Origin: Acidobacteriota bacterium
GTDB taxonomy: Bacteria > Acidobacteriota > UBA6911
DNA: 48,289 bases
Reading direction: 5' to 3'
NCBI GenBank assembly: GCA_003225335.1
Contig: QHZE01000439.1
Span: 1-48,289, forward strand
Of the stretch, positions 15,158 to 39,874 are shown one piece after another. Every line of letters begins with the position of its first letter. Within the stretch, counting starts at the first letter, position 1. The position numbers and the translations under genes are program-made. The notes under the pieces are model-generated. The model had not been told where the DNA came from. It was given only the letters and a program-made list of their open reading frames with translations, and made no database searches.

Positions 15158-15450
15158 TGAAACCACAGATGAACATAGATGAACACGAATCTGTGTTTAT
15201 CTGTACTACTAACGGGCAAATCCTTTGCCGCTTGGAAAGAATTCTTCTTCGCAGATTCTTCGCGCTCTTCGCGTCTTCGCGGTTAATTCCTGACAGCGCT
15301 TTCACCGCTAAGACGCGAAGGACGCAAAGAAAACGCTAAGAGTCGCGAAGATTCTCAGCGAATAAAGACTTGCCACGAATTTCACGAATTGACACGAATT
15401 TCTTTCACTCACTCGAAATCATTTTCGTCGAATTCGTGTAATTTGTGGCA
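15158..15450. repeat. Three stacked inverted repeat families (E, C, D)
   Basis: This gap of about 430 bases contains, in order, a family E pair (ACCACAGATGAACATAGATG against CTGTGTTTATCTGT, 15158-15204), a family C pair (CTTCGCGTCTTCGCGGTTAA against CCGCTAAGACGCGAAGGACG, about 15250-15346), and a family D pair (GCCACGAATTTCACGAATTG against GAATTCGTGTAATTTGTGGC, 15371-15450). No gene was seen in it. Confidence 0.75.
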
Positions 15451-31021: not shown

Positions 31022-32477
31022 TTGAACGAGGCTCCGGCTGTTGCTCAGGACAAAACCACCGGCTTTATCCGCGGGCTCGGACTCCTGGATTCAACCATGA
31101 TCGTGTCCGGCTCGATGATCGGATCCGGCGTTTTCATTGTCTCCGCTGATATCGCTCGCAATGTGGGGTCGGCAGGCTGGCTGCTCCTCGTCTGGATCGT
31201 GACCGGTCTCCTGACCATTGCGGCGGCTCTTTCCTACGGCGAGCTCGCGGGAATGATGCCGAACGCCGGCGGCCAATACATATATCTGCGAGAGGCCTAT
31301 TCCCCATTGTGGGGCTTTCTCTACGGCTGGACCCTGTTCTGGGTGATCCAGACAGGAACGATCGCCGCGGTCGCTGTGGCCTTTGCGCGTTTCCTGGGTA
31401 TTCTCGTACCTGGAGTCTCGCCCAATATCTGGATCGTCCGGCCCATCAACGTTTCTTCGGGTTACGCGGTCAGCCTGACTTCACAACAGCTCGTCGCGAT
31501 CCTCTTGATTCTGGTTCTGACGGGGTTCAACACGCGCGGCTTGCAATGGGGCAAGGTGATCCAAAATGTGTTCACCTCGGCCAAGACTCTTTCGCTCCTC
31601 GCGCTTGTTCTCATCGGAATCGTGCTCGGACGGAACCAGGCGGCCATAACGAGCAACTTCAACGACCCCTGGACACCCCGGCAGGTGCTGACCGTAAAAC
31701 CGGACCTTCCCTTCCTGCCGGTCGCTGCCGCAACATCAGGCGCGCTGGGCCTCTTTGTAGCATTTTGTGTGGCGCAGGTCGGATCGCTGTTTTCGGCGGA
31801 TGCCTGGAACAACATCACCTTCACCGCCGGGGAGGTGAGGGAGCCTCAGCGCAACATCCCGCTCTCGCTGTTTTTCGGCACGGTTCTTGTCATTAGCCTG
31901 TACGTCCTGGCCAACGTCGCTTACCTCGTAACTCTGCCTCTGGCGGACATTCAAAATGCGCCCGACGACCGGGTCGCAACCGCCACCCTCAAGGTGATCC
32001 TCGGCGACGCCGGCGCCACGGTGATGGCAATTGCCATCATGATCTCGACTTTTGGCTGCAACAACGGGCTGATCCTCGCCGGCGCCCGGGTTTACTATGC
32101 GATGGCGCGCGACAATTTGTTTTTGAAATCTGCGGGGAGTCTCAAAGGGAGTACCGCTCCTCGATCCCGCCACCGGCGTGGAGCAATACGGCAATCTGTA
32201 CGGCAATTTGTTGGATTACGTGGTCTTTGCGGTTCTCATATTCTATGTCCTCACCATCGGCGGTCTCTTCATCCTCCGCCGCACGAGGCCGGATGCCGGC
32301 AGACCGTATCGCGCGTTCGGATACCCCTGGATCCCGGCTTCTTACATCGCCGCCGCGACAGCCATCATGGTCGTGCTGATCCTTTACAAGACGCAAACCA
32401 CCTGGCCCGGATTGCTTATCGTTTTTTCCGGCATTCCGTTCTATCTCGTATGGCGCCGGGGCTTTCAGCGGTCATGA
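31022..32477 (+). pseudogene. APC-family amino acid permease, broken by an internal deletion and frameshift
   Basis: The first frame carries about eight membrane segments of an APC-superfamily transporter (STMIVSGSMIGSGVFIVSAD is the TM1 substrate motif; ALSYGELAGMMPNAGGQYIY; STFGCNNGLILAGARVYYAM). It fails at about 32140-32160. The next frame then continues normally: DPATGVEQYGNLYGNLLDYV, FYVLTIGGLFILRRTRPDA, PYRAFGYPWIPASYI, LVWRRGFQRS to 32477. Homologues have some 25 more residues between LFLKSAGSL and the YGNLL helix, so about 70-80 bases seem lost together with the frame. Start is TTG 31022 with GGGAGGTG upstream. Read literally, frame 1 would continue to 32509 with a nonsense basic tail. 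Confidence 0.85.
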
Positions 32478-32502
32478 TGATTTTTCGACCGATGGAAAAC
32501 TC

Positions 32503-32592
32503 TGCGTGATTCTTCGCGTCTTAGCGTCTTCGTGGTGGGTTGGTACCCAGCCTTTACCACGAAGACGCGAAGACACGAAGAATCGCCAAGTT
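32503..32592. repeat. Family C inverted repeat
   Basis: TGATTCTTCGCGTCTTAGCG plus TCTTCGTGGTGGG faces TACCACGAAGACGCGAAGAC plus ACGAAGAATCGCC around GTTGGTACCCAGCC. A near-perfect 30-base-arm hairpin just after the APC permease gene. Confidence 0.75.
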
Positions 32593-35237: not shown

Positions 35238-35336
35238 TTCGCGGTTCCTTTGCGCCCTTAGCGCCTTCGCGGTAAAAACTGACCCGGAATTTCACCGCCA
35301 AGACGCGAAGACGCAAAGCCTCGCGAAGGTTTTGAT
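35238..35336. repeat. Family C inverted repeat
   Basis: TTCCTTTGCGCCCTTAGCGC plus CTTCGCGGT faces ACCGCCAAGACGCGAAGACG plus CAAAGCCTCGCGAAGG. It is followed by GTGCAATCGGTGGCTTCATG, which resembles the outer end of family E and runs into the 3' end of the flavin oxidoreductase gene. Confidence 0.7.
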
Positions 35337-36984: not shown

Positions 36985-37719
36985 TCACGGGAGAACTCCT
37001 TGCGCATGGAATAGGGTTCGAATGCGGCTGCTGTATTCGGCTATCTGTGGCGTGGTCCCCTTGTCCATCCGTCTGGGTCGCGGCAGGGGAATCGGGAAGA
37101 CCTGCACCACCTCGGCGGGATGGGGCGACAGCACGGCCACTCGATCCGAAAGCTGCACCGCTTCCCGAATGTTCTCCGTGACAAGCACCGCTGTCGTCCC
37201 GGCCGACATCCAGAGATGTTGCAGGTCCATCAGAATCCGCTCTCTGGCAATAGGATCCACAAACCTGAATGCATCGTCCAGGATCAGCAACGGCGGCTCG
37301 TGGACCAGGGCGCGGCAAATGGAAACGCACACCTTTAGGTAAGGCGTGAGTTCGCAAGGTCTGCGCTCTTCAGAGCCCGAAAGGCCGAAGGCCGCAAGCA
37401 GGCGCCGCGCCCTCGCTTCGTGCGCTGTTCGACGAAGCCCGCGTACTTCGGCCTGCAGAAGCACATTGCTCAAAGCGGTGCGCCACTCCAGAAGAGCCGG
37501 GTTGGAGAAGATGAATCCCGTTTCCGTCTGCGGGCCCGTGACGCGCTTGCCGGAAATCAGGATTTCTCCCGGCGCCGCTGGAATCAATCCGGCGAGCATT
37601 CGAAGCAAGCGGGTTTTACCGCACCCGCTCGGACCCACAAAAGAAAAGAATTCCCCTTCGCCGATTTCCAGGCTGGCGCATCCCAGAATGTTTCTCAATT
37701 CGACTCGGGCCAAACTCAT
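36985..37719 (-). CDS. Degenerate ABC transporter ATP-binding protein, SsuB/TauB-like
   Basis: A 244-residue protein aligned with nitrate/sulfonate/taurine ABC ATPases. Walker A is intact (GPSGCGKT, 29-36). Other motifs have decayed: Q-loop reads FSNP where VFQ-x-P is expected (Gln to Ser72); the signature LSGGMRQR is LTPYLKVC (124-131); Walker B ends LDD, with Asp149 for the catalytic Glu; and the H-loop reads VTENIREAV with Glu182 for His. ATP could bind but hydrolysis is doubtful. Its presumed permease (39062-39874) has normal motifs. ATG 37719 directly follows a family C repeat, which supplies the AAGG ribosome binding site. Reading frame and codon use are still gene-like, so it is either recently relaxed or repurposed. 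Confidence 0.85.
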   Translation of the reverse strand: MSLARVELRNILGCASLEIGEGEFFSFVGPSGCGKTRLLRMLAGLIPAAPGEILISGKRVTGPQTETGFIFSNPALLEWRTALSNVLLQAEVRGLRRTAHEARARRLLAAFGLSGSEERRPCELTPYLKVCVSICRALVHEPPLLILDDAFRFVDPIARERILMDLQHLWMSAGTTAVLVTENIREAVQLSDRVAVLSPHPAEVVQVFPIPLPRPRRMDKGTTPQIAEYSSRIRTLFHAQGVLP

Positions 37720-37722
37720 CTT

Positions 37723-37802
37723 CGTGCCTTCGCGTCTTTGCGGTGAGCTCAGGCTCAGTTTCACCGCGAAGGCGCTAAGTCCGCGAAGGGAATCGCGGCT
37801 GA
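37723..37802. repeat. Family C inverted repeat between divergent genes
   Basis: TTCGTGCCTTCGCGTCTTTG plus CGGTGAG faces TTTCACCGCGAAGGCGCTAA plus GTCCGCGAAGG. It lies between the divergent ATPase (minus) and MFS (plus) genes, so part of it is in both leaders. Confidence 0.7.
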
Positions 37803-37857: not shown

Positions 37858-39111
37858 ATGCCGACAGTTCGGAATCAAAAAACCACCAGCGCGGATCGGC
37901 AACCCGAAAACGCGGATATTCCATCGCGTTTGGGCGGCGCCCGGATACACGTAGCCATTACCGCTTTCCTGGCGCTCTTCTCAATTGTCGGAGTGGCACT
38001 GTACGGCCTGCCGTTCTTCTACGATTTCATGGTCCAGGACTTTGGCTGGACCCGGCGCAAGGTCACGTCCGGGAATGCGTACAGCAAGTTGCTCGTCGGC
38101 CCCGCCTTCGGTTTCCTGGCAGGGTGGATTGTGGATCGCATGGGGCCGCGCCGGCTGATGCTGGCGGGGATAATGATGGCCGGTACCGCCCTGGTAGGTC
38201 TGGGATCCATCTCCACGTTGGGCATGTTCTATTTCTTTTATCTGTTCAACGCGCTCGGGTACGTGTGTGGGGGGCCGCTCCCCAACCAGGTCCTGCTCTC
38301 GCGCTGGTACGACAAGGCGCGCGGGAAGGCGATGGGGTTCGCCTATCTCGGCATAGGGATAGGGGGGACTATAGTGCCTCGTCTGGCCCACTGGCTGACA
38401 CAGACACTCGGGTGGCAGGACGCGCTCAAGACCCTGGGTCTCTTGATGATTGTGGTGGCGTTTCCGACGGCTTTCTTTGTCAAGGAGTCTCCCAATCCTC
38501 TTGGCGGGAAAGCCGGCGAGCGGCCGGAGTACGCGCCCGTGGGTCCCGTTTTCCGGAACCCGGCTTTCTACTTGCTCGCCTTGGGAAGCATGTGTTCCAT
38601 TGGCGCGGTGGGCGGCACCATGCAAAACCTCAAACTTTTTCTGAGCCTGGACCAGAAACTTCCCCAAGGACAAATAGCGAATGTGCTTTCGCTGGTGTTG
38701 CTGGGCAGTATTGCAGGACGCCTCTTGATGGGTTGGCTCGCCGATCGCTACCCCAAGAAATATGTGATGCTCCTGATATACACTATCGTTGCTTCAGCGG
38801 TCCCTCTGCTGTTCTATGCCTCGGTGCCCGGTCTTTTGTACGCGTTCGCCATCATATTCGGCATCGGTCTCGGCGGGGATTACATGATCATTCCGCTGAT
38901 GGCGGCGGAGTTATTCGGGATCAAGGTGCTGGGTCGTCTCATGGGAGTCATTCTGACCGCGGACGGTGTGGCGGAGGCTCTCTCCCCGATGCTGGTAGCT
39001 ACCATCCGGGATTCCAGCGGAAGCTACGCTTTCGGTTTCTCCCTGCTGATAATTCTCGCGATCATCGGGGCTGTTTCTGTTGCGATGCTTCCGAGACGCA
39101 GGATTGCTTGA
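37858..39111 (+). CDS. MFS transporter, oxalate/formate or monocarboxylate-like
   Basis: A 417-residue major facilitator with 12 membrane segments. Features: loop 2-3 signature GWIVDRMGPRRLMLAG, SRWYDKARGKAMGFAYLGIG (typical of OFA/monocarboxylate families), DALKTLGLLMIVVAFPTAFF, and second-half loop LLMGWLADRYPKKYVM. FGIGLGGDYMIIPLMAAELF and EALSPMLVATI are also family-like. It likely moves an organic anion with protons. It lies in opposite orientation between the ABC ATPase and its permease, and its last 50 bases overlap the 3' end of the permease gene. Confidence 0.9.
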   Translation: MPTVRNQKTTSADRQPENADIPSRLGGARIHVAITAFLALFSIVGVALYGLPFFYDFMVQDFGWTRRKVTSGNAYSKLLVGPAFGFLAGWIVDRMGPRRLMLAGIMMAGTALVGLGSISTLGMFYFFYLFNALGYVCGGPLPNQVLLSRWYDKARGKAMGFAYLGIGIGGTIVPRLAHWLTQTLGWQDALKTLGLLMIVVAFPTAFFVKESPNPLGGKAGERPEYAPVGPVFRNPAFYLLALGSMCSIGAVGGTMQNLKLFLSLDQKLPQGQIANVLSLVLLGSIAGRLLMGWLADRYPKKYVMLLIYTIVASAVPLLFYASVPGLLYAFAIIFGIGLGGDYMIIPLMAAELFGIKVLGRLMGVILTADGVAEALSPMLVATIRDSSGSYAFGFSLLIILAIIGAVSVAMLPRRRIA

Positions 39112-39874
39112 CCTGGTACCAGGGAATAACCTCCCGCTCCACGACTCGAATTGCCCCGATCAAAAGAGGGGCAGCGAAACTCAGGCAGACTAACGCTGCG
39201 AAGAGAAGAGGCGAGTTTAGCTTGTTATGAGCCGCCAGGAGAAGGTAACCCAATCCCTTGTCGGCCGCCACGAGCTCACCCACGATCGCTCCCACCACGG
39301 CCGGAGTCGCAGCAGCCTTCAGGCCCTTGAAGAGATCGGGCAAACACGCGGGAAGGCGGACTTTGAGAAATTCTTGCCAGCGGGTTGCCCCCATCGTGTG
39401 CAGCAGGTCTTGAACTTCAAGTGGCACGGAGTGGAGACCCTCTGCCGTGCCGCTCACGATCGGGAAGAAGGAAAGCAGGGAAACCAGCAGCACCTTCGAC
39501 AGGGTTCCGAAACCAAACCAGATGAGTAACACCGGGGCTGCTGCGACGAGCGGCAGATAACGCGGGCACGCAAGTATCGGCTCGACAAGTCTGTCGAGCC
39601 CGGGGAACATCGCGGCAGTGAACGCCAGAGGGATGGCGAGAAGGGCAGCCAGAAAGAAGCCGCCGGCTATCTCGCCACACGTAACCCGGGCGTGAGCGCT
39701 CAACTGCGGCCACTCCTTCCAGATCTCCAGGGAAATTCTGGAAGGAGTGGGCAGCAGGTCAGTCCGGAGCTGATAGAGGCGTCCTGACAACTCCCAGGTC
39801 ACGACGGCTCCAATAATGAGGGCGAGAGCTCGCGTACGGCGGCCCAGGATTTGAGGGACTCTGGTTGAGTTCAT
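39062..39874 (-). CDS. ABC transporter permease, SsuC/TauC-like
   Basis: A 270-residue BPD_transp_1 type permease with six membrane segments. The EAA loop is intact: LLHTMGATRWQEFLKVRLPA plus CLPDLFKGLKAA, along with VVGAIVGELVAADKGLGYLL, characteristic of nitrate/sulfonate/taurine/pyrimidine-precursor transporters. It would sit in the inner membrane with a SsuB-type ATPase and a periplasmic binding protein; no binding-protein gene is in the window. The ATPase gene at 36985 is the likely partner but has lost key motifs. Tail-to-tail overlap of 50 bases with the MFS gene. Confidence 0.92.
   Translation of the reverse strand: MNSTRVPQILGRRTRALALIIGAVVTWELSGRLYQLRTDLLPTPSRISLEIWKEWPQLSAHARVTCGEIAGGFFLAALLAIPLAFTAAMFPGLDRLVEPILACPRYLPLVAAAPVLLIWFGFGTLSKVLLVSLLSFFPIVSGTAEGLHSVPLEVQDLLHTMGATRWQEFLKVRLPACLPDLFKGLKAAATPAVVGAIVGELVAADKGLGYLLLAAHNKLNSPLLFAALVCLSFAAPLLIGAIRVVEREVIPWYQVKQSCVSEASQQKQPR

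Follow-up and report, generated by a model that had tools for sequence, protein, structure and literature searches.

Degenerate nucleotide sites of ABC transporters are best known in asymmetric exporters and in the fused nucleotide-binding domains (NBDs) of some importers. The exporters with such sites include TM287/288, TmrAB, and ABCC1, in which one site holds ATP without hydrolyzing it, under selection, and a second, canonical site drives transport (PMC7756269, in the excerpt available). RbsA and NupO of Bacillus subtilis are fused importer NBDs in which the second Walker A lacks its Lys (PMC11466899, in the excerpt available). The multitask ATPase MsmX is encoded elsewhere and serves several permeases that have no NBD gene of their own (PMC7658222, in the excerpt available).

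We present here an ABC ATPase of an Acidobacteriota bacterium that, to judge from its sequence, appears distinct from these known cases: a free-standing importer NBD in which Walker A is kept and most other motifs are lost. Its likeness to the asymmetric exporters is in a predicted nucleotide site that would hold ATP without hydrolysis while under selection; it differs in being a single NBD with defects for both sites, and no paired NBD gene adjoins the permease/ATPase pair. RbsA and NupO are also importer NBDs that have lost motifs at one site, but they are fused and their second Walker A lacks its Lys, whereas this NBD is free-standing and retains Walker A. Unlike the permeases described for MsmX, the permease here has an NBD gene, albeit a degenerate one. 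In an open-licence literature search, judged by title and the start of the abstract, no paper was found on this permease/ATPase pair in an F420 cluster or on a NitT/TauT-type importer with a free-standing NBD unable to hydrolyze ATP.

The gene was analyzed within a window of 48,289 nucleotides, the whole stretch of DNA studied, which is contig C158 of a 7.54-Mb genome (G000; 795 contigs, 96.7% complete).

Gene, fold, and motifs of the ATPase

The ATPase gene (36985..37719, minus strand) is a single open frame of 244 amino acids, in agreement with the first-pass annotation, which had noted no frameshift or stop. By descent and fold, the product is a NitT/TauT-type (SsuB/TauB/NrtD-like) ABC ATPase. 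It matches PF00005 (ABC_tran) in Pfam at 72.9 bits (cut-off, 25). The AF2 model (pLDDT, 87.2) is that of an ordinary NBD, with CmpBCD/NrtBCD as the closest PDB structure by Foldseek, and CmpD is also matched by sequence (E = 4e-37). The nearest NCBIfam models are TauB and SaoA, at 148 bits each. The curated equivalog cut-offs (TauB, SaoA, SsuB, and others) are missed, the best score being 148.1 bits versus 357, and the protein lies under the cut-off of every model among the best 25 of 164 NCBIfam rows. It resembles TauB, SsuB, and SaoA (and, by structure, NrtD and CmpD) in sequence, fold, Walker A, the Walker B Asp, and permease type, but differs from them in having lost the Q-loop Gln, the signature Ser and Gly, the catalytic Glu, and the H-loop His.

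Among the motifs that mark competence for hydrolysis, Walker A is present (GPSGCGKT, residues 29 to 36; 37612..37635, minus strand), and the Q-loop Gln, LSGGQ/M, catalytic Glu, and H-loop His are absent. The Q-loop position is Ser72 (37504..37506, minus strand), where 98% of relatives have Gln. The signature LSGGM reads LTPYL (residues 124 to 128; 37336..37350, minus strand), at positions where relatives have S in 100%, G in 93%, and G in 100%. Within Walker B, Asp148 is kept and the catalytic Glu149 is replaced by Asp (37273..37278, minus strand), and the H-loop His is replaced by Glu182 (37174..37176, minus strand), with His in 97% of relatives. The D-loop Asp (D155) is retained, and the Pro of the DEP motif is also gone. 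Motif inspection and alignment thus bear out the four alterations recorded at first pass (Q-loop Gln, LSGGQ, catalytic Glu to Asp, and H-loop His to Glu). The accompanying statement that only Walker A is intact holds for Walker A itself and is slightly overstated in its "only," since the Walker B Asp148 and the D-loop Asp155 are kept as well.

The protein has a short N-terminus without an A-loop counterpart and starts just after a dispersed intergenic repeat. An inverted pair of this repeat (37728..37779, unstranded) abuts the start codon, and the usual beta1/A-loop coding region is absent; inspection of the upstream sequence by eye, in all three frames of this strand, gave nothing that corresponds to an A-loop. 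The repeat, ACCGCAAAGACGCGAAG, has 18 near-copies in the 48-kb window versus 0.28 expected, often as inverted pairs (for example, at 15267-15320, 32512-32572, and 35257-35310, besides 37728-37779). Elsewhere in the window, glnD (TIGR01693; 26418-28896, plus strand) is split, with model positions 6-546 and 562-850 in different frames and residues missing at the junction. A second glnD-like copy, on contig C604, is split in the same region. The split in glnD may be a real lesion or an assembly artifact. An APC-type amino acid permease frame (31022-32509, plus strand) appears, by eye, to lose frame in its last quarter.

Orthologues, conservation, and coding constraint

In the orthologue search, 10 of 60 genomes matched at E ≤ 1e-40, the window's own genome included. 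Orthologues are present in two genomes of a single other genus in the family, G003 (55% identical) and G006 (52%), and both are degenerate at the same motifs: the Q-loop residue is E or D, LSGG is LPPG (LPPGT and LPPGA), and the H-loop residue is C or S. Walker A is intact in each (GPAGCGKT and GPPGSGKT). Asp148 is retained in all three proteins, and position 149 is D in the window, E in G003, and Q in G006. The best matches after these two, at 45% identity or less, have canonical motifs. In a maximum-likelihood tree of 60 rows, the three ATPases form one clade with support of 100/99 (bootstrap not fully settled); canonical relatives sit outside it and have other gene contexts wherever their surroundings were read. 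The first-pass annotation had named as contrary evidence an orthologue that occupies the same locus with canonical motifs; none turned up, both orthologues found being degenerate. Sequencing or assembly error as the origin of the motifs was ruled out, since the pattern recurs in two independent genomes.

A profile of the three ATPases was run against 396 genomes of the phylum; six candidates per genome were scored, and motifs were read in those rows that came back as loci. The window, G003, and G006 came out on top (458 to 491 bits), followed by G035 at 260 bits with canonical motifs; no fourth degenerate member occurs among the rows with motifs read. The combined motif loss is likewise absent from the at least 80 loci listed in a contig scan, the patterns of which cover the Walker A region and the stretch before it, such that relatives without Walker A could be missed. 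The degenerate lineage is known here from three genomes in two genera. Partial departures were seen in other relatives. L085, L091, and L094 (Polynucleobacter, UBA7447, and a Nitrospirae metagenome-assembled genome) carry DEPFRGLD and have the H-loop His replaced by Thr or Ser. In two Acidimicrobiia relatives (L064 and L069), the Q-loop Gln is missing (LARS for FQ..) and the signature is LSQGM instead of LSGGM. Their other motifs are intact, and none of these loci displays the full combined loss.

The Q-loop Gln, LSGG, and the H-loop His are needed for ATP hydrolysis by ABC proteins. Because all are lost in all three orthologues, hydrolysis by the degenerate ATPase would be very unlikely. Selectivity of the loss was assessed against 90 nondegenerate relatives (after removal of degenerate rows, identical sequences, and any row scoring below 120 bits), in which 40 positions are conserved at 90% or more. 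Six of these 40 are lost in all three orthologues (Q72, S125, G126, M128, R131, and H182), 21 are kept in all three (the Walker A G/K, D148, W79, N85, and others), and 13 are kept in part. With a catalytic set (Q72, 124-128, E149, D155, and H182) picked from general motif definitions after the alignment had been viewed, loss in all three affects 5/9 catalytic positions versus 1/31 elsewhere (Fisher p = 0.001), and loss in at least one of the three affects 8/9 versus 9/31, as tallied for the test (p = 0.002). Pro126 is fixed in all three degenerate ATPases and found in 0/90 relatives; R152, C135, N183, and F111 are also fixed in all three and rare elsewhere. At Q72, E149, and H182, the replacement residues differ between the window, G003, and G006, and these sites therefore seem free to drift rather than fixed for a new role. 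Two segments are conserved above average, 73-95 after the Q-loop (15/23; p = 0.047) and 132-142 (9/11; p = 0.014), with both values uncorrected and ten regions tested. From general NBD anatomy, we take segment 73-95 to hold the permease-docking groove.

The ATPase frame is open in all three genomes, at 52 to 63% identity. Third codon positions differ by 58 to 65%, so that dS is saturated, and codon-position differences and branch ratios relative to uvrB were used in place of dN/dS. Between the window and G003, the ATPase differs by 0.39/0.27/0.63 at first, second, and third positions, and third positions vary about twice as much as the mean of the first and second. The branch ratio window/(G003 + G006) is 1.15 for both the permease and uvrB and 0.94 for the ATPase; the window branch is therefore not accelerated. 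In absolute length, the window branch is 0.47 for the ATPase versus 0.14 for uvrB, the ATPase being faster. The F420 genes give ratios of 0.60 to 0.86 and are less suitable as rate controls because cofE is broken in G000.

Given the open frames, the third-position excess, the lack of acceleration, and the degeneracy common to the orthologues, the loss appears to be of long standing and maintained, not a case of fresh decay. The earlier judgment that the changes amount to more than random decay usually leaves is thereby supported, on the grounds of degenerate orthologues, a single clade, coding constraint, and losses concentrated in the catalytic motifs. Slow decay, in which the transporter ceased to function either in the common ancestor of the three lineages or in that of the window, leaving a remnant yet without a stop, is possible but unlikely. 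The catalytic positions vary freely among the three ATPases, as a remnant's would, and the window has in addition a split operon, a shortened N-terminus, and neither the catalytic Glu nor the DEP Pro; other genes of the assembly also carry lesions (cofE on contig C410 and glnD). Such a remnant is hard to square with frames kept open in three genomes at that level of divergence, with the third-position excess, with a window branch no faster than that of uvrB, and with losses that fall preferentially in the catalytic motifs.

Permease, gene neighborhood, and candidate partners

The permease, a BPD_transp_1 protein (PF00528, 87 bits) of the TauC/SsuC/SaoP-like type, is encoded at 39062..39874 on the minus strand. 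It is orthologous to the permeases adjoining the degenerate ATPase in the sister genus and is the sole match to the A3 profile in G000 at 1e-25. Its EAA (coupling-helix) loop (39314..39415, minus strand) has an ordinary sequence, as do the EAA loops of the G003 and G006 permeases. Identity to the permeases of the sister genomes is 36% and 32%, a greater divergence than that of the ATPase. Between the ATPase and permease genes, on the opposite strand, lies a major facilitator superfamily (MFS) transporter gene of the oxalate/formate-lactate type (37858..39111, plus strand; PF07690, 133.6 bits; NF049980, 142 bits, under its cut-off of 320), the 3′ end of which overlaps the permease gene by 50 bp. 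The distance from the permease end (39062) to the ATPase start is 1.34 kb. The ATPase had been described at first pass as beside an intact permease; the permease is indeed normal, but the two genes are not directly adjacent.

In both G003 and G006, the ATPase gene directly follows the permease gene on the same strand. The gene order is F420 oxidoreductase, CofD, CofC, CofE, PNPOx-type protein, permease, and degenerate ATPase, followed by a radical-SAM gene on the other strand (named by Pfam for G006 and by homology for G003). The F420 genes of the window genome are on another contig, C410. There, cofE (L158; 6899-7578) has an internal TGA and a deletion that changes the frame; the frames of fno, cofD, and cofC are open, a suspected break in cofC having been rejected because the apparent stop is the natural gene end. 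A review of F420 mentions a putative ABC transporter, possibly an exporter, that adjoins the 3PG-F420 cluster of P. rhizoxinica (PMC8498797, in the excerpt available), and the papers found in the open-licence literature search say little about F420 transport.

Candidate partner genes were sought near the pair and elsewhere. Matches to the substrate-binding family NMT1 (PF09084) number five in G000, G003, and G006, none of them on the contig of the permease/ATPase pair. Neither the window nor the portions of G003 and G006 that were read show a second NBD gene adjoining the pair. A second intact SsuB-type ATPase, which the first-pass annotation had proposed seeking in the genome, does exist: canonical SsuB-type ATPases are encoded elsewhere in G000, the nearest, on contig C607, being 39% identical.

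A canonical NBD encoded elsewhere might pair with or replace the degenerate subunit, forming either a powered heterodimer or a powered permease with a regulatory pseudo-ATPase. The SsuB-type ATPases of the genome, the normal EAA loop, and the precedent for NBD sharing set by MsmX (PMC7658222, in part) speak for this reading, which we nevertheless rate as distinctly unlikely. In a heterodimer, the lost LSGGQ would spoil one composite site and the lost Gln, Glu, and His the other. Since the same subunit lacks both the signature and the catalytic residues, neither composite site would be fully canonical if it paired with a canonical NBD, unlike in asymmetric exporters, where NBS2 stays canonical (PMC7756269, in part). 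A homodimer of canonical NBDs on the permease is untouched by this argument.

Proposed role and implications

With both composite sites spoiled on pairing, a nonhydrolyzing docked subunit is favored. We give about an even chance to the ATPase being a maintained pseudo-ATPase, that is, a permease-docked NitT/TauT-type NBD able to bind ATP but not to hydrolyze it. With Walker A and the Walker B Asp in place, Mg-ATP binding is probably retained, and ATP hydrolysis is predicted to be absent. The protein would dock on its permease and, rather than driving it, may act there as a clamp or gate, either structural or responsive to nucleotide. The observations behind this proposal are the motif pattern, the common inheritance, the constrained frame, a permease gene in all three genomes, and the intact EAA loop. 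Counting against it are the split pair and lost A-loop in the window, possibly early signs of decay, the restriction to three genomes, the drifting catalytic sites, and a permease more diverged than the ATPase.

The possibility raised at first pass, that of a transporter deprived of its motor, is in line with these results. The alternative offered with it, a regulator or ATP sensor, did not gain comparable footing: the EAA loop on which an NBD docks is normal in the permease, which makes a permease-bound subunit at least as likely. A degenerate ATPase that has left the transporter and acts alone as an ATP-binding regulator would be consistent with a kept Walker A, lost hydrolysis motifs, and a window gene that no longer adjoins the permease. 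We consider it quite improbable, since the permease gene is adjacent and on the same strand in both sister genomes, the 244 residues include no added regulatory domain by Pfam, and the docking segment is conserved.

A further, improbable reading gives the nonhydrolyzing NBD a specific task as an ATP-gated valve on an importer-type permease, which would move F420 or a precursor in the sister genus without ATP-driven pumping; this cargo is suggested because the pair is part of the F420 cluster there.

If the maintained pseudo-ATPase is real, a permease of this type can work with a nonhydrolyzing subunit. Lineage-wide loss of the hydrolysis motifs beside an intact permease would then offer a natural test of what an NBD contributes besides energy. 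Should the F420 link seen in the sister genus hold, it would point to a transporter of the cofactor or a precursor.
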